64,000 bases of DNA, taken from Bacteroidia bacterium (lineage in GTDB: Bacteria; Bacteroidota; Ignavibacteria; SZUA-365). The notes below the pieces were generated by a model that saw nothing but the letters and a program-made list of their open reading frames with translations, was not told where the DNA came from and made no database searches. Below are positions 33,402 to 55,080 of the stretch, piece by piece; the first letter of the stretch is position 1, and each line of letters begins with the position of its first letter. Location of the stretch: the NCBI GenBank assembly GCA_027493955.1, contig JAOSJT010000001.1, positions 4,202,552 to 4,266,551 on the forward strand, given 5' to 3'. A program made the translations under genes and the position numbers.

Positions 33402-36140
33402 CTACTTCACAACCGTCATCGTCCTGCTCATCGTCACACCACCCGCCACCATGCGACAATGATAGACTCCGGAAGACAGATGAGCGGCGTCGAAGGTAAC
33501 GGCATGCCGACCCGCGGTGCGTTGCTCGTCCAGCAGTACAAGAAGTTCAACACCTCTGCTGTCATGGACGGACAGGCGCACGCGCCCGGCATCCTTCATC
33601 GAAAACGAAATGCTCGTCGTAGGGTTGAATGGGTTCGGATAAATATCGTCGATCGCGTACTCGTGCTCGGCAATCTCCGCCGTCCGTGCCTTTTCGTTTG
33701 ATGGTCCGGGAAGCGTGCGTATCGTGACCGAATCGGCCTCTGTCAGGGGAAGACCGAGATCGATTTTGGCGTGAACCTCCTCATGCGATCCGGGATACAG
33801 GTCCGCGATATCTTCATAGATGGCGTAGGCGCCATTCCAATCCTTCAAACCCCTGTGCGTGAGTATCACCAGCGCCAGATGCGAGCGGCGCGCGATCAAC
33901 GGTTCGGTCGTGCTGATTGCCGCGAGATTGTTGTAGAGCGCAACCGCTTCGGGATAGTGACGGTTCGCGGCATGATAATCGGCCAGATACTCCGTTGCGG
34001 TGTTGCGCAGCCACGGCGGTTGCGCGGTCGAGCTTCGAATGGCGCTCAGGGTGTTGACATACTGTGCCTTGGCGGATGCCGGATTGACGCATATCGCATC
34101 GTTGGAGGGTTTGTTGAGCGTTGCGTCCATGAAGGATTGTTGCCATTGCGTCAGGCATTGCTCGGCCTCCCAGCGTCGTTGTGCGTACCCCAACGCTTCA
34201 CCATATTTCGCAACCGCCGTTGTGTACGCTCGCAGCCGCTTGCTTGCCGCACCCTGGTTGAACGCAAGCGTGTACCTCGGATCAATGGCCTGGCGCTGCA
34301 CGACGGGCGTCTGCGTGGAGTTCGATTTGTGGAGCACTGTCTCCGAACCCGCCGGGTTGGACCAACTGAATACCGACAGCGCGTCCACATCCACATTCAT
34401 GGAAACATCATCGGGATAGTTGCCGTCGCCGATGACGGTGGAGGTGTCGCGCAGGATGAAATCATACGCGATATTGGAATGCACGCTGTTGTCGCATTCG
34501 AAGGTGGGCGCCGATTTGTGCTGTATATGTACGCCGGCGTTGTTCCAGCGCATGCTGTTGCCCTGCGTCGTGTCGCAACTCCCGCCATCGTACCGATTGA
34601 ACGGCAGATACAGATCGTTGCCGAAGACTCCATAGGTTCCGTTCGAATCCACCCGATTGTCCGTCCACAGATTGCCGCAATGATACAGCAGCGCGCCGTA
34701 ATTCGTGTTGTTGTTGAAGCGGTTGTCGTGTACGACGGTGCTCATGTAATAGCCGAGCAGGCCGGCGTTCTTGTTTCGCTCTATACGGTTACTGCTCAGG
34801 AAGGGCGAATCGCTGAACACGGTGATGCCGATATCATTGTCGGACAGTTCGCAATTCGTGATGGTCGGTTGCGCGTGATCGGTGGTGATGCCGCTTTTCG
34901 CGCCGTGGACAAAGAGATTCGAGAGCGTGGATTGCTCCGAGAGGGCAATGTCGATGCTGTCGAAGACGATGCCGGTCCATGAGGTGACGCTGGAGAGTTT
35001 ATCAAAACGGGCCCAGTTACTGCCATTGAGCCCCGCATCCATCACGCCGCGTATTTTTATCACGCCATCTCGCTGCATCTCCACGATACTCTGCGTTTTC
35101 ACCTCCAGTACGCCGCCGCTGTCGATGATCATGGTATGCAGGCCGGTCACATGTGCCTCCGGACAGATCACGATTTTGCCGCCATCCCGACAGACAATGC
35201 GGCTGTTCGCGCCGAACGTGTTGGTATTGAGCCAAAGTTCGCCGTCCACATACAGCGTTCTGCCAGCATCGAAGAGAAGGGTGGAATTGTTGTTGACATT
35301 GACAAGCGTCCCTGCGGTGATATAGGTGTCGCCCGTAATGGTGAAGCTACCGTCGAGATTCACGCGCTTGATCGAGTATATCGTATCAGCGATGGTTTCG
35401 TGATAGTGCTTGAAAATGGACAGGCCGTCCGTCCCACCGCCCGCGTAGCAGATCTTCTGTCGGTAGGCATCGGGGAACACACCATAGATGCCCTGGCCCC
35501 AGTTTCCTGAGTCAGAATAATTCCCGGTCGTGAGCGTATCGTAGACATTGTAATACGCCACCTCGATGAGATTCTCCGGATCGCTGATATCGAGTACGCG
35601 AAAGCCCTGCGTGTAGTGAGCCACATACGCATATCCGTCGCGCGTGTGCAATTGGTGGATGGAATTGGGCGGACGCGTCGTATCAAACATCGATGTATTG
35701 ATCAATCCCGCCGCCTCCCCGTTCTGTACGAAGTAATTGCCCTTGAGTGAAGTCGTCGAGGCGGAATCGAGGTCGCTCGTTTTCCACACCTTGAGTATCG
35801 GTGCCTGAAGGGAATCGCCATAGGCAAAGCCCGAACTTCCGGGTGATATTTCATCCGTTGTAAACACATAGTTCCGATCATCCGTAGGCCAGGCGCTGTG
35901 GCAGGTGCGCCAGTCGAAGCGCGGAGTAAGTGTCGAAAACACGTTCATAGCACCACTTTTATCGCTGTCGTACATTTGTCGCTTCACGATGCTACTGTTC
36001 GCCGCATTCGCGGTGTCCATATCGAGGATGAACAGTCCGCCGCGCGTGTACGCGACATACGCGCGATGCCCATTAGGATCGACATACATCTCATGCACGC
36101 TCTCGGTAATATGGGATGTAGAGCCGAAGCCGCCGGGCAA
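33402..36140 (-). CDS. Large T9SS surface protein, part after an in-frame stop (choice-of-anchor-B end, beta-helix, T9SS tail)
   Basis: This 912-codon frame is continuous with the gene part at 36147-36776, interrupted only by a TAA at 36147-36149. It starts in the middle of a choice-of-anchor-B propeller (HEMYVDPNGHRAYVAYTRGG, HQLHTRDGYAYVAHYTQGFR), then has a right-handed beta-helix-like region around residues 310-600 (TITNCELSDNDIGITVF, TVVHDNRFNNNTNYGALL), a helical region with weak TPR character, and a T9SS sorting domain (IYPNPFNPTTSISFSMKDAG ... GVYHCRMVAGG). The apparent TTG start is probably not used; without the signal peptide from the upstream part this product could not be exported. 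Confidence 0.7.
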   Translation of the reverse strand: MPGGFGSTSHITESVHEMYVDPNGHRAYVAYTRGGLFILDMDTANAANSSIVKRQMYDSDKSGAMNVFSTLTPRFDWRTCHSAWPTDDRNYVFTTDEISPGSSGFAYGDSLQAPILKVWKTSDLDSASTTSLKGNYFVQNGEAAGLINTSMFDTTRPPNSIHQLHTRDGYAYVAHYTQGFRVLDISDPENLIEVAYYNVYDTLTTGNYSDSGNWGQGIYGVFPDAYRQKICYAGGGTDGLSIFKHYHETIADTIYSIKRVNLDGSFTITGDTYITAGTLVNVNNNSTLLFDAGRTLYVDGELWLNTNTFGANSRIVCRDGGKIVICPEAHVTGLHTMIIDSGGVLEVKTQSIVEMQRDGVIKIRGVMDAGLNGSNWARFDKLSSVTSWTGIVFDSIDIALSEQSTLSNLFVHGAKSGITTDHAQPTITNCELSDNDIGITVFSDSPFLSSNRIERNKNAGLLGYYMSTVVHDNRFNNNTNYGALLYHCGNLWTDNRVDSNGTYGVFGNDLYLPFNRYDGGSCDTTQGNSMRWNNAGVHIQHKSAPTFECDNSVHSNIAYDFILRDTSTVIGDGNYPDDVSMNVDVDALSVFSWSNPAGSETVLHKSNSTQTPVVQRQAIDPRYTLAFNQGAASKRLRAYTTAVAKYGEALGYAQRRWEAEQCLTQWQQSFMDATLNKPSNDAICVNPASAKAQYVNTLSAIRSSTAQPPWLRNTATEYLADYHAANRHYPEAVALYNNLAAISTTEPLIARRSHLALVILTHRGLKDWNGAYAIYEDIADLYPGSHEEVHAKIDLGLPLTEADSVTIRTLPGPSNEKARTAEIAEHEYAIDDIYPNPFNPTTSISFSMKDAGRVRLSVHDSRGVELLVLLDEQRTAGRHAVTFDAAHLSSGVYHCRMVAGGVTMSRTMTVVK

Positions 36141-36146
36141 GCTGTA

Positions 36147-36776
36147 TTAACCCTTGTGTATCGGTGCGGTAGGATTCCACAGCGACCAGACATCGATATC
36201 GTGGGTCTGAGTGGCGATGTAGAGTATATTATCTGCGATGGTGATTGTGTGTGCTTGCGCTGTACCGAGGTCAAGGTTTGGAATAGTTGCAGTCTGCACT
36301 GAACTGACCGGTACGAAATGATCCTGCGCTGTTTGCCCAAGGGCTATCGCGGAATCGACATTTACAATGTAGACGACGGGGTTAGCATTCTTGTTCGCAA
36401 TCGCCAAAGCCGCGTATGTTGTATTGTTCACCTCGAAGGTTTCCACGTCGGCCACGCCAATATTCACTGGATTGAACGGGTCATAATAGTCATCATCGTT
36501 GACGTACGCCACCTCATTGTAGTATGCGGGTGACGTGCCATTGACCAATGCGATGCTCAAGCCGCCTCCCAATGTCGAGAGCGCGTAGTGCCGATTGGGA
36601 GTGCCAGCTATCCTAATACCCCAGACATCGCTGCTACCTCCTTTCGAGAAATTATCCTCAGCGATCACCGCGACGTTTTTGGATTGAAACGTGTAGTTTG
36701 ACTGCGCCAAGGTGAGTTGTGCGAACAGGAGGGCTATTGAGATAGCAAGTATGCGGGTTCTGTATCGATGTATCAT
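36147..36776 (-). CDS. N-terminal part of the interrupted choice-of-anchor-B surface protein
   Basis: A 209-residue product with a signal peptide (ILAISIALLFAQLTLAQ) and a choice-of-anchor-B/LVIVD-type propeller start: SSDVWGIRIAGTPNRHYALS, GGGLSIALVNGTSP, AHTITIADNILYIATQTHD. GGAG lies six bases before the ATG. Translation stops at TAA after HKG; the paralog at 38210-39205 has a serine (TCG) there, and the frame continues without other breaks for 900 codons. Either the gene is a pseudogene, or the stop is read through, or it is a sequencing error. The intact gene would span 33402-36776 and encode about 1123 residues. Confidence 0.75.
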   Translation of the reverse strand: MIHRYRTRILAISIALLFAQLTLAQSNYTFQSKNVAVIAEDNFSKGGSSDVWGIRIAGTPNRHYALSTLGGGLSIALVNGTSPAYYNEVAYVNDDDYYDPFNPVNIGVADVETFEVNNTTYAALAIANKNANPVVYIVNVDSAIALGQTAQDHFVPVSSVQTATIPNLDLGTAQAHTITIADNILYIATQTHDIDVWSLWNPTAPIHKG

Positions 36777-36820: not shown

Positions 36821-38143
36821 TTATCGTTGGATCACGATTCTCTGCGTCACTACTTCTTTTCCGGCGAACGCGGTTAGAATATATATGCCGTTTGGCACAT
36901 TCTGGTTGTAGCGGTCACGGAGATCCCAATGCAAGCTGCCGGGGCCGAGCATTTGCCACTCTCGAAGCAACTTGCCGAGGGTATCGTACACTCCGAACAT
37001 AACGCTTGCATCTGTCGGCAACTCTGTTTTCACCGTAAGGCTTTCGCTTGCCGGCTGTGGCCAGGTTTGCATGCTGAAATCTGATAGTTGAGGCGTAGTC
37101 TTTACGTCTGTAAGAGCATTCTCCCGGACGTATATGCCCTTAGCCGTTTGTAGATACAAGCGATCCCGACCCGCATCGTACGAGAGCCATTCGTACGGCC
37201 CACCAAAAGTTGGCTTATAAGGCAGCAGTGCGGAAAGCGTGTCATAGACCCATGTTGCACCCCGATCTGTAGAATGATACACTCCCGGCGAGTCACCCAG
37301 TGCGAGGAAGAAGAGATGATCGGGATTATTTGCAGACATGACGCCGTGAACAACGCCGATCCCCCTCCAACCCTGAAATATAGGACTCCAGGACAATCCG
37401 CCATCTGTCGATCGTACAAAATCGCTCTGGAACGGGGCATAGATCAATAAAGGATCGTCAGGATCGATGATCATCATTGAAAGCAGTCCTTGACCCCAAC
37501 CAACAATCTCCCATGTCACTCCATCATCGGAGCTATGAAAAAAATACGCGCCTCCGATGTCCGTGTCCACGTTCACATACACATCCGGTGTTGTCGGACT
37601 CATGCCGATACCGATTCGCGATCCATCGCTTGAGGCCGGAAAGGGGTATGGCCATGACCAGGTCCTACCGTAATCTGACGAACGATATAAGCGGTCCAAT
37701 GGGCCATAGGAAGTAATTCCGAAAAGTACTCCGGTATGATTGCCCTCCTTGAAGTAAAACCGGCTGATATCGGTTGTAAGTTGACCCATTTCATGATTTT
37801 CCCAAGTTCGTCCGGAGTCTGCGCTGATGAAAAAATGCCTTGTCCTTGAAGGATCGAATGTATAGTAGGCGGCGAGCACTTTGATCGAATCTCCCGGAAA
37901 AATCCATGTCGCGGCCCCGACAGGAAGCGTGGTTGTATCGACTCTTTCCCAGTTCTCTCCGGCATCAAGTGAGCGGTAGAGTCGTCCCGAACCTGGTACC
38001 CGTACAGATGCGAATATCAGATCACCCAAGAGAGACATTGATACAATTTCTTTTTCCTCCGGCCCGATATACCGCCAACCGCTTTGCGCGGAAGCAAGTG
38101 TGGGAAACAGTATAAACACCAATGAGGCGAGTAGCAGCTTCAT
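36821..38143 (-). CDS. Secreted BNR/Asp-box beta-propeller protein with T9SS sorting domain (copy A)
   Basis: A 440-residue secreted protein. Signal peptide at residues 1-20 (KLLLASLVFILFPTLASA), then SGWRYIGPEEKEIVSMSLLG and several Asp-box units: SLDAGENWERV, SADSGRTWENH, SSDYGRTWSWP, SSDDGVTWEIV, STDGGLSWSP and STDRGATWVYD. The C-terminus is a T9SS sorting domain (QTWPQPASESLTVKTEL, GVYDTLGKLLREW, PNGIYILTAFAGKE). The ATG at 38143 follows AAAGGA by eight bases. It is a paralog of 39249-40565; both follow a truncated choice-of-anchor-B gene, so the pair arose by tandem duplication. Function unknown; probably a surface binding protein. Confidence 0.87.
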   Translation of the reverse strand: MKLLLASLVFILFPTLASAQSGWRYIGPEEKEIVSMSLLGDLIFASVRVPGSGRLYRSLDAGENWERVDTTTLPVGAATWIFPGDSIKVLAAYYTFDPSRTRHFFISADSGRTWENHEMGQLTTDISRFYFKEGNHTGVLFGITSYGPLDRLYRSSDYGRTWSWPYPFPASSDGSRIGIGMSPTTPDVYVNVDTDIGGAYFFHSSDDGVTWEIVGWGQGLLSMMIIDPDDPLLIYAPFQSDFVRSTDGGLSWSPIFQGWRGIGVVHGVMSANNPDHLFFLALGDSPGVYHSTDRGATWVYDTLSALLPYKPTFGGPYEWLSYDAGRDRLYLQTAKGIYVRENALTDVKTTPQLSDFSMQTWPQPASESLTVKTELPTDASVMFGVYDTLGKLLREWQMLGPGSLHWDLRDRYNQNVPNGIYILTAFAGKEVVTQRIVIQR

Positions 38144-38209
38144 GATGGAAGTCCTTTCCGGAGAGTGCAGTGTATGTCGCTGATTGCTTATGTGGTTGAG
38201 CATACGTAA

Positions 38210-38611
38210 TCATGTGCTCAGAATCAAGTCATAAAATGTTGAATTCACTGAATTACACGGAGGCTCTACATCCGTTGTAAACACATAGTTCCGATCATCT
38301 GTAGGCCAGGCGCTGTGGCAGGTGCGCCAGTCGAAGCGCGGAGTAAGTGTCGAAAACACGTTCATAGCACCACTTTTATCGCTGTCGTACATTTGTCGCT
38401 TCACGATGCTACTGTTCGCCGCATCGGACGCGTTGATATCGATGATGAACAGCCCTCCGCGTGTGTACGCGACATAAGCGCGATGGCCATTCGGCCCATT
38501 GGGATCGACGAACATTTCATGCACGCTTTCGCTGGTATGCGATGTGGACCCGAAACCCCCGGGAAGTGTGTACGAACCCTTGTGCTGAGGCGAGGAGGGA
38601 TTCGAGACATC
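38210..38611 (-). pseudogene. Rear part of a truncated choice-of-anchor-B gene (copy 2), after an in-frame TAG
   Basis: In frame with 38612-39205 after the stop, it reads DVSNPSSPQHKGSYTLPGG, then HEMFVDPNGPNGHRAYVAYT and IVKRQMYDSDKSGAMNVFST, nearly identical to the full-length copy. It then diverges at about TTDVEPPCNSVN and ends after YDLILST, whereas copy 1 runs on for another 800 residues. Copy 3 (40632-41018) ends in the same way (YDLILNT), so truncation preceded duplication. No beta-helix or sorting domain remains. Confidence 0.65.
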
Positions 38612-39205
38612 CTATACATCGATCTCATGCTTCTGCGTGGCGACGTACAGACGGTTGTCCGCGATGGTGATGGTGTGGGCTTGGGTAGAGCCTGAGTCGA
38701 GGCTTGGAATAGTGGCTGTCTGGACCGAACTGATGGGCACAAAGTTATCTTGTGCCGTTTGACCGAGGGCTATCGCGGAATCCACATTGACGATGTATAC
38801 GACTGGATTAGCACTGCTCCTGGCTATTGCCAAGGTAGCGAACGTGATACCGCTCACCACGAAGGTTTCAATGTCGGCGAAACCATAAGAAATTGGAGTT
38901 TGAGCTTGGATATCGTAGTCGACGTGATTAACGTACGCCATCTCATTGTAGTACACAGGTGATGTTGCGTTGACCAATGCAATACTTAATCCACCACCCA
39001 GCGTTGAAAGCGCGTAGTGTTTGTCAGGAGTACCGGCGATCTTTATTCCCCACACGTCACTGCTACCTGCACGTGAGAATTTATCATATCCGATCACAGC
39101 AACATTTTTCGAATGAAAGGTGTAGTTGGATTGTGCATCGGCAATGTGTACGTGAATACAAATTGCGGATAGTACGAGCACAAGGTGTATGTAGCGCTGC
39201 TTCAT
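38612..39205 (-). CDS. N-terminal part of choice-of-anchor-B protein (copy 2), ending at an in-frame TAG
   Basis: A 197-residue product with signal peptide (IHLVLVLSAICIHVHIADAQ) and the propeller start SSDVWGIKIAGTPDKHYALS, GGGLSIALVNATSP, AHTITIADNRLYVATQKHE. GAGGG lies five bases before the ATG at 39205. The stop after EIDV falls where copy 1 has a tryptophan (DIDVW), a single G-to-A change from TGG to TAG. It lacks a T9SS tail in either reading. Probably a decaying duplicate. Confidence 0.7.
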   Translation of the reverse strand: MKQRYIHLVLVLSAICIHVHIADAQSNYTFHSKNVAVIGYDKFSRAGSSDVWGIKIAGTPDKHYALSTLGGGLSIALVNATSPVYYNEMAYVNHVDYDIQAQTPISYGFADIETFVVSGITFATLAIARSSANPVVYIVNVDSAIALGQTAQDNFVPISSVQTATIPSLDSGSTQAHTITIADNRLYVATQKHEIDV

Positions 39206-39248
39206 TGTTGCCCTCATAAAGTGGTGTTCAAAATGTGGATTTCGAGGT

Positions 39249-40565
39249 TTATCGTTGAATCAAGATTAGACGTGTTAGTCTCTCCTGTCCAGCAAACATT
39301 GTCAGAAGGTATATTCCGCTCGGTAATTCCCTGTTGTTACTGTCACGAAGATCCCACTGAAAACTGCCGGGTGCAGACACGCGTTGTTCACGCACCATGG
39401 TTCCCAGGGTGTTGTACAAGCGGAGCGTGGTACTCGAGGCCGCCGGCATTTCGATGTTCACGGTCATGCTCTCGCGTGCCGGCTGAGGATACACCTGAAT
39501 CAAAGGGGCTGGAGGTATTTCGGTAGCCGTGAGGTTCGTGCTCAAATTATCACGGATGTAGATTCCTTTCCTGGTCTCGAAATACAATCGATTACGGCTT
39601 GCGTCGTGTTGAAGCCATCTATTCGCGTCTCTTGAATTCCAGTAGGATTTGTACGGAAGGTCAAGCGAGCTTGAATCAACAGTCCATGTGAAACCTCTCG
39701 ACTGAGAGTGAGAGATTGCGCCCGTATTGCTATTGAACCGAAACAGTTCGTTCGCATTCTTTAAGTTTCGGGTCAATGAGCGAAAGCCTCTATTGTCATT
39801 ATCTGTATAAATGATTGTCCAGGATGAGCCGCGGTCTTCTGAAAGGAGGAGCTGATTTCCTTGGGTAGCGAGTATTTGGTTGGTCAAATCCGGATCAACC
39901 GATAGTGAACCAATGTTCAGTGGACTTTCGGCGACGAACTGCCACGTCTCCCCGTCATCCGCACTGTGGAAGAAATACGCTCCTCCGATATCGGTATCAA
40001 CATTGACATAGACATCCCGAGACGTTTCACTGACGGCTAGTGCGATGATGGAACCGTCGCTGGAATATGGGAATGGGTACGGCCACTGCCAGGTTCTACC
40101 GAAATCCGTCGAGCGATACAGGCGTTCAAATCGATGATTGATGGAACGAAAACCGAATACCAGACCGGGAACGTTTTTCTTCTGAATCAGTCCGCCGATA
40201 GAGGGATCCTGCTGATCCGTGGAATCCCAAGAGACCCCCAAATCGTTGCTGAAGTATATTTTCGACGCAGTCGCCCCCCACAATCGTGTGGGTTCGCCCT
40301 CGAGAATTGTAACAACGGTGCTAGGGTGTATGAGATTTGTGTCGAGGAGAGACCAGGAATCTCCAGCATCGGTTGAGCGATATATGCGTCTTGCGTTGTA
40401 CCCACCTTCCGGGCGTGGGATTGAAACAGAGGTAAAGATCAGATCGCCCAAGATGGACATATGAGTAACGCTATGTTCCTCCGGTCCGATATACCGCCAA
40501 CCGCTTTGCGCAGTTACGAGGGTGGAATAAAGAACGAGAGCGAATGCGAAAATAATCACTTTCAT
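39249..40565 (-). CDS. Secreted BNR/Asp-box beta-propeller protein with T9SS sorting domain (copy B)
   Basis: A 438-residue paralog of the 36821-38143 product. Signal peptide at residues 1-20 (KVIIFAFALVLYSTLVTA), then SGWRYIGPEEHSVTHMSILG and Asp-box units STDAGDSWSLL, SNDLGVSWDST, STDFGRTWQWP, SADDGETWQFV and SEDRGSSWTII. The C-terminus is a T9SS sorting domain (QVYPQPARESMTVNIEM, LYNTLGTMVREQ, PSGIYLLTMFAGQE). The N-terminal third and the central DVYVNVDTDIGGAYFFHS block are highly similar between copies; the rest has diverged. AAAGGA precedes the ATG. Function unknown. Confidence 0.87.
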   Translation of the reverse strand: MKVIIFAFALVLYSTLVTAQSGWRYIGPEEHSVTHMSILGDLIFTSVSIPRPEGGYNARRIYRSTDAGDSWSLLDTNLIHPSTVVTILEGEPTRLWGATASKIYFSNDLGVSWDSTDQQDPSIGGLIQKKNVPGLVFGFRSINHRFERLYRSTDFGRTWQWPYPFPYSSDGSIIALAVSETSRDVYVNVDTDIGGAYFFHSADDGETWQFVAESPLNIGSLSVDPDLTNQILATQGNQLLLSEDRGSSWTIIYTDNDNRGFRSLTRNLKNANELFRFNSNTGAISHSQSRGFTWTVDSSSLDLPYKSYWNSRDANRWLQHDASRNRLYFETRKGIYIRDNLSTNLTATEIPPAPLIQVYPQPARESMTVNIEMPAASSTTLRLYNTLGTMVREQRVSAPGSFQWDLRDSNNRELPSGIYLLTMFAGQERLTRLILIQR

Positions 40566-40631
40566 GATGGAAGTCCTTTTCGAAGAGTGCAGTGTATGTC
40601 GCGGATTGCTGATGTAGTTGAGCATACGTAA

Positions 40632-41018
40632 TCATGTGTTCAGAATCAAGTCATATAATGCCGCATCTCCCGAATTGCCCGCAGGGATTTTATCCGTCGC
40701 CCGCACAGACTCCCGATCCTCCGTCGGCCAGGCGCTGTGACAGAGCCGCCAGTCAAAAGCCGTGTCAGCGGAGAAAACCGAAAGAGCGCTCAGTTTGTCG
40801 CTGTCATACATCTGTCGCTTCACGATGTTGCTGTTGAGGACATCGGCGGTATCGATATCGACAATGAACAGCCCGCCGCGCGTGTACGCCACGTAGGCGC
40901 GATGGCCGTTCGGTCCGTCGGGATCGACGTACATTTCATGCACTGTCGCTCCCGGCATGTTTGTCCCCGGCACTGGATTCGGCAGAGCGTAAGCGCCTTT
41001 GTGTATGGGCGAGTACAT
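40632..41018 (-). pseudogene. Fragment of a choice-of-anchor-B gene (copy 3), lacking its 5' end
   Basis: Encodes only SPIHKGAYALPNP, HEMYVDPDGPNGHRAYVAYT and IVKRQMYDSDKLSALSVFS, ending in YDLILNT like copy 2. The region upstream of this (signal peptide and first propeller part) is missing: the homology begins within ten bases of the terminator of the M1 peptidase gene. An apparent ATG at 41018 is probably chance. It is the remains of the 5' gene of the older duplication unit. Confidence 0.7.
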
Positions 41019-41020
41019 CG

Positions 41021-41054
41021 AAAAAAAAGGAGCAGAGAAATTCTTCTCTGCTCC
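41021..41054 (-). terminator. Intrinsic terminator of the M1 peptidase gene
   Basis: On the minus strand GGAGCAGAG and CTCTGCTCC form a 9-bp stem (extendable through the A/T-rich loop) followed directly by eight T residues. It lies about 75 bp after the stop of the aminopeptidase gene and is the clearest rho-independent terminator in the window. Confidence 0.85.
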
Positions 41055-54566: not shown

Positions 54567-54926
54567 CTAGGTAATGATCACTCCGCCCATGTTGTCGTAT
54601 GCCGCGCGCGGATTGCGCTGGGCATTGTCCGCAGTGCATACCTCGATGCCGTCGAAGCGGTTTTTTACAACGTCGAGAGTGCCAAGGCCAAAATAGTCGG
54701 TACGCGGCCCTATCCACTGTGGTATGCCCAGATTGGCATCCACAAGCTGGATGTAAATGTCGGCGCCCGTGGCCGCGGTTTGCTCGCTTTCCCAAACCAC
54801 GGCAAACTCGGTCACTCGGCTGGGCCTGGCGATGGAGGGCTTTAATTGATCGAGCACCGCCATGGAGAGGGAGCGATCTTTGTCCTGCGTTTGCGCAACA
54901 GTGGTTTGCGGGGGCTGGGCCGCCAT
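54567..54926 (-). CDS. N-terminal part of the phase-variable T9SS surface protein, ending at an in-frame TAG
   Basis: In this frame a signal peptide is encoded from about 54975 (RRIRLVGSILCAVFLLMAAQ), but no ATG, GTG or TTG precedes its hydrophobic core; the first ATG (54926) lies within it. The mature part has PSRVTEFAVVWESEQTAATG, GADIYIQLVDANLG and ends at VIIT before TAG. The parallel repeat in the rear part reads AFITW, so the TAG stands where tryptophan is expected. The start that would drive it is the ATG at 55080 (GAGG five bases upstream), which is out of frame at the present repeat number. Confidence 0.65.
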   Translation of the reverse strand: MAAQPPQTTVAQTQDKDRSLSMAVLDQLKPSIARPSRVTEFAVVWESEQTAATGADIYIQLVDANLGIPQWIGPRTDYFGLGTLDVVKNRFDGIEVCTADNAQRNPRAAYDNMGGVIIT

Positions 54927-54991
54927 CAGGAGGAAGACGGCACAGAGAATCGAGCCGACGAGCCGTATCCGACGGCATGCGGGACAATCAA

Positions 54992-55045
54992 ACGAATCGA
55001 CGAATCGACGAATCGACGAATCGACGAATCGACGAATCGACGAAT
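54992..55045 (-). repeat. 8-bp variable-number repeat (ACGAATCG)x6 at the 5' end of a surface protein gene
   Basis: Six perfect copies of ACGAATCG plus six further matching bases. It lies between the ATG at 55080 and the signal-peptide sequence of the minus-strand gene. Because 8 is not a multiple of 3, each gain or loss of a unit shifts the frame. From the ATG the present frame reads 30 codons and hits TGA right after the repeat; one more unit (7) or two fewer (4) opens the frame into the signal peptide. Confidence 0.9.
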
Positions 55046-55080
55046 GTCACCGTTGATTGTCCGGGGATTAGGTGTTTCAT

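Follow-up and report, generated by a model that had tools for sequence, protein, structure and literature searches.

A single in-frame TAG in a truncated tandem copy of a choice-of-anchor-B-like gene is likely a recent nonsense mutation

The in-frame TAG at codon 202 of the second copy of a choice-of-anchor-B-like gene likely arose by a recent nonsense mutation, in a tandem duplicate that is decaying. The copy lies in an array of secreted-protein genes within the 64,000-nucleotide stretch that we analysed (the window; G000:C1:4202552-4266551 of a 5.24-Mb genome), and besides the stop it has lost the 3' part of its reading frame. In-frame stops of this kind have already been described as widespread in bacteria: they are found in genes with dN/dS below 1 and are short-lived (Belinky et al. 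2021, PMC7918605).

Results

In the order of transcription, the array consists of the copy 3 remnant, BNR2, copy 2, BNR1 and copy 1. Its features, with window coordinates, are the following.

41029..41054, minus strand: terminator-like hairpin 3' of an M1 peptidase gene, immediately before the copy 3 remnant
40632..41018, minus strand: choice-of-anchor-B copy 3, a 5'-deleted remnant of ~120 codons
40561..40660, minus strand: leader before BNR2
39249..40625, minus strand: BNR2, intact paralogue of BNR1 (45% identical)
38210..39217, minus strand: choice-of-anchor-B copy 2, with a signal peptide followed by ~310 residues of the LVIVD beta-propeller
38612-38614, minus strand: in-frame TAG at a Trp position, codon 202 of copy 2
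38139..38238, minus strand: leader before BNR1, 93% identical to the BNR2 leader
36821..38203, minus strand: BNR1, intact, of the BNR/Asp-box type and carrying a T9SS sorting tail; probable start codon ATG near 38143
33402..36776, minus strand: choice-of-anchor-B copy 1, full-length, with LVIVD propeller, NosD-like helix region and T9SS sorting tail
36147-36149, minus strand: in-frame TAA, codon 210 of copy 1

Copy 2 read CATGAGATCGATGTA up to the TAG and GATGTCTCGAATCCC after it (codons GAT GTA TAG GAT GTC). At the matching site copy 1 has Trp (GAT GTC TGG TCG CTG TGG AAT), as does the homologue from an Ignavibacteriales MAG (G032; PNISVWNLNN), the only good homologue in the 100 related genomes searched. 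The Trp in both indicates that TGG was most likely the ancestral state at codon 202 and TAG the derived one. The change amounts to a single G-to-A transition, the commonest class of mutation in bacteria (PMC2936535), so that the presence of two TGG-to-TAG changes among three stops in the window, described below, needs no special cause.

The claim of an earlier note on this DNA that a TAG has replaced Trp in copy 2 was thus borne out by the position and by the Trp in copy 1 and the homologue. That note had also described the TAG as the single in-frame stop of the gene. There is indeed one internal stop, but copy 2 has a larger second defect: similarity to copy 1, a gene of 1,124 codons, stops at ~codon 318. 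Copy 2 lacks the ~800 residues with which copy 1 ends, the T9SS sorting tail among them, and its own terminal residues, YDLILST, come from translation of leader DNA that belongs to the next gene. The C-terminal sorting domain of type A T9SS cargo was found in copy 1, BNR1 and BNR2 and was absent from copy 2. Compared with its homologues, copy 2 therefore carries disabling lesions in the form of both the TAG and the 3' truncation, and the original observation is correct at the level of the base and incomplete at the level of the gene. Copy 3, a smaller remnant that had escaped the earlier note, has the same 3' truncation junction as copy 2. Copy 1 is the only full-length choice-of-anchor-B copy of the array, yet it is interrupted by the TAA.

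Copy 1 matched both the choice-of-anchor B family model (TIGR04312, NCBIfam) and LVIVD repeats (PF08309). Its TIGR04312 score of 28.4-30.3 bits was far under 100 bits, the curated cut-off, and copy 2 by itself gave LVIVD matches and none to TIGR04312. By these profile scores, copy 1 is a distant relative of the choice-of-anchor B family. A literature search found no paper on choice-of-anchor B.

The array was not found in close relatives, either among the 100 related genomes or in GTDB contigs; the only outside matches were the Ignavibacteriales MAG homologue (42%) and a weak hit in KSB1. At the Ignavibacteriales MAG locus a BNR-type gene is followed by a choice-of-anchor-B gene, as here, and the pair is therefore probably the ancestral unit. 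The 100-nt leader has two copies genome-wide, those of BNR1 and BNR2 only. Both contain TTGATT-N17-TATGCT, of which the BNR1 instance did not reach the promoter-scan threshold. The 93% identity of the leaders compares with ~76% in the flanking coding DNA, and the signal peptides have strongly diverged. A second conversion tract could account for this similarity, as could conservation of a promoter together with the 5' leader.

Copies 1 and 2 differ at ~30% of positions except in one short segment.

38267..38425, minus strand: copy 2 side of the converted tract, 156 bp aligned
35850..36008, minus strand: matching tract in copy 1, placed by means of the alignment

Over these 156 bp (codons 265-317 of copy 2) there was one difference from copy 1, a degree of identity reached in 0/5000 permutations, and dS was 0.03 inside the tract compared to 1-1.8 elsewhere. 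Judged from this near-identity and low dS, the tract is the product of a recent gene conversion. The tract ends at the truncation point of copy 2.

An exchanged tract next to truncated copies that adjoin one full-length copy could also be what a silent-cassette system would leave, in which truncated copies supply sequence by recombination to the full-length copy and so vary a surface protein. We give this reading hardly any credence: one tract only was seen and is explained by ordinary recombination between tandem repeats, the full-length copy 1 is itself broken by the TAA, and copy 2 sits behind its own intact BNR gene.

We interpret the stop in copy 2 as a recent mutation in part from the pattern of substitutions. 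Outside the converted tract, dN/dS between copies 1 and 2 was 0.13 for the segment before the TAG and 0.17 for the one that follows, with a highly significant excess of synonymous changes in both segments (Fisher p = 2e-26 before, 1e-7 after). Relative to the outgroup, changes were balanced between the two copies (12:9 before the TAG, 3:5 after). The low dN/dS on either side of the TAG and the balanced changes indicate that both copies were constrained until recently. No second stop was found across the 1,124 codons of copy 1, which corresponds to neutral decay of ~0.9% (upper bound ~4%). Past purifying selection, the conversion tract and the lack of another stop in copy 1 together indicate that the stops are recent relative to the duplication.

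The dN/dS of 0.13-0.17 shows no relaxed selection along copy 2. Either the relaxation is too recent to show or copy 2 is still constrained, and the strict label for copy 2 is accordingly a recently disabled copy, not an old pseudogene. Between the truncated copies 2 and 3, dN/dS was also low (0.17-0.27); the truncated product may long have been useful, or the truncation junction may have been spread late by recombination.

Equal constraint before and after the stop would also fit low-level readthrough that maintains the full-length product, with the stop as an attenuator, and bacterial in-frame stops in genes with dN/dS below 1 are widespread (PMC7918605). However, a recent mutation predicts the identical dN/dS pattern, and such stops persist only briefly (PMC7918605). 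Readthrough of copy 2 would in any case yield a truncated protein without the sorting tail, RF1 is present, and neither a suppressor tRNA nor PylS was found in the genome (see below). We therefore regard readthrough as very unlikely. That the stops of the array are kept on purpose, be it in a copy that donates sequence to the full-length surface gene by recombination or in one for which slight readthrough sets a low dose, appears very improbable too.

The third gene with a single stop in the window lies outside the array.

54567-54569, minus strand: in-frame TAG in the third T9SS gene (~54926-51558), where aligned homologues have Trp

This TAG is the only stop of the gene. Upstream, at 54960-55046 on the minus strand, short repeats give SSIRRFVDSSIRRFVDS on translation and are probably non-coding repeat DNA.

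The three stops had been presented as belonging to three independent genes, one in each. This description did not hold, as the 156-bp tract has been exchanged between copies 1 and 2, which are tandem paralogues, and copy 2 is truncated as well. That two of the three are TAG in place of Trp was confirmed (copy 2 and the third gene); the stop of copy 1 is TAA. We compared the window with forty 20-kb stretches (800 kb) chosen for T9SS genes, 864 kb in all with the window included, by means of a coding-potential scan that recovers 89% of stops planted at Trp codons. Outside the window, the 800 kb contained one clear case of a single in-frame stop (L110) and one doubtful case (L122). The clear case is a BNR gene with a T9SS tail and a single in-frame TAG (L110:12786-12788, G000:C1:3032785-3032787; GTLPSLP*VLLATG). 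Among tail-bearing genes, 2/6 in the window had a single stop compared to 1/88 outside (Fisher p = 0.01), a post hoc value for a window that was chosen for its cluster. The three stops span 18.5 kb and are denser than in the sampled background, and two of the three sit in one duplicated, recombining array. The suspected excess of single stops in T9SS genes thus stands as a local cluster above background, and in the sampled 800 kb, with one other clear case, it did not extend further.

A cluster of three isolated single-base stops in otherwise undamaged reading frames, two of them in a TGGGA-to-TAGGA context, is what base errors could produce, or minority alleles, the assembly consensus having TAG where the strain or population has TGG. 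Several results weigh against this. In the sampled ORFs, 377 in-frame TGG-GA sites were read normally, which makes a miscall driven by the TGG-GA motif unlikely and disfavours the systematic base error that had been proposed as an explanation. The stops are of mixed type (two TGG to TAG, one TAA), the 800 kb contained a single other clear stop, and the genome, a single contig, has a completeness rating of 100%. Copy 2 is, moreover, truncated whatever the base at codon 202. We consider a base error or minority allele unlikely. A frameshift scan, run as a measure of assembly quality, gave output dominated by gene boundaries and shadow frames.

An in-frame TAG at a Trp position resembles TAG recoding or pyrrolysine decoding, and the genome was searched for the machinery of either. 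RF1 is intact (510.7 bits), and TAG terminates 76/325 long ORFs. There was no CUA, UUA or UCA anticodon among the 47 tRNA matches, 46 of which could be called. The best PylS match scored 26.6 against a cut-off of 178 and is unsupported. TAG recoding and pyrrolysine decoding were rejected, as RF1 is present, a CUA tRNA was not found, PylS is below cut-off and TAG is a genuine stop; judged from gene content, recoding is excluded for practical purposes. The view that genome-wide recoding is unlikely agrees with these findings. Stop suppression, another of the proposed explanations, found no supporting machinery in the genome, and the search for a suppressor tRNA with a CUA anticodon that the earlier note had suggested returned none among the 47 matches. 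Relaxed selection on a redundant gene is the best-fitting of its three options, since copy 2 is a tandem duplicate that has been truncated.

Discussion

The following course of events would account for the array. An ancestral pair, made up of a leader with a promoter-like site, a gene for a secreted BNR-repeat protein and a gene for a choice-of-anchor-B beta-propeller protein, with type IX export, would have been duplicated in tandem. The choice-of-anchor-B genes that became copies 2 and 3 would then have been cut at codon ~318 and fused to the leader of the next unit, and copy 3 would have lost its 5' part as well. Later, a G-to-A change would have turned TGG into TAG at codon 202 of copy 2, and codon 210 of the full-length copy 1 would have become TAA. 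In copy 2, translation is expected to end with residue 201, and the product would have neither a complete propeller nor type IX sorting even if the stop were not there. We infer the order of these events, the loss of function and the standing of the stops as true mutations.

The stop in copy 2 resembles those of Belinky et al. (2021, PMC7918605) in being the sole in-frame stop of a gene whose dN/dS is below 1 and whose frame has not decayed further. It differs from them in that copy 2 is also truncated and part of a tandem array, and is known here from one genome. The array also has duplicate units, truncated remnants, a conversion tract and nonsense mutations in common with birth-and-death evolution with gene conversion in tandem repeats, from which it shows no essential difference. 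For annotation, it illustrates that a striking pattern of Trp-to-TAG changes in neighbouring genes requires no recoding. Readthrough, if shown, would be a further case of natural UAG suppression for the Bacteroidota/Ignavibacteria group; nothing here points to it.

The one tRNA match that could not be called is degenerate (L072, G000:C1:36113-36179). It was rejected as a suppressor, as its loop is of the CAC type and not CUA. The match keeps an intact 3' half and lies ~4 kb from an intact tRNA-Val(CAC) at G000:C1:40277-40351. It may be the attachment-site remnant of an integrated element.
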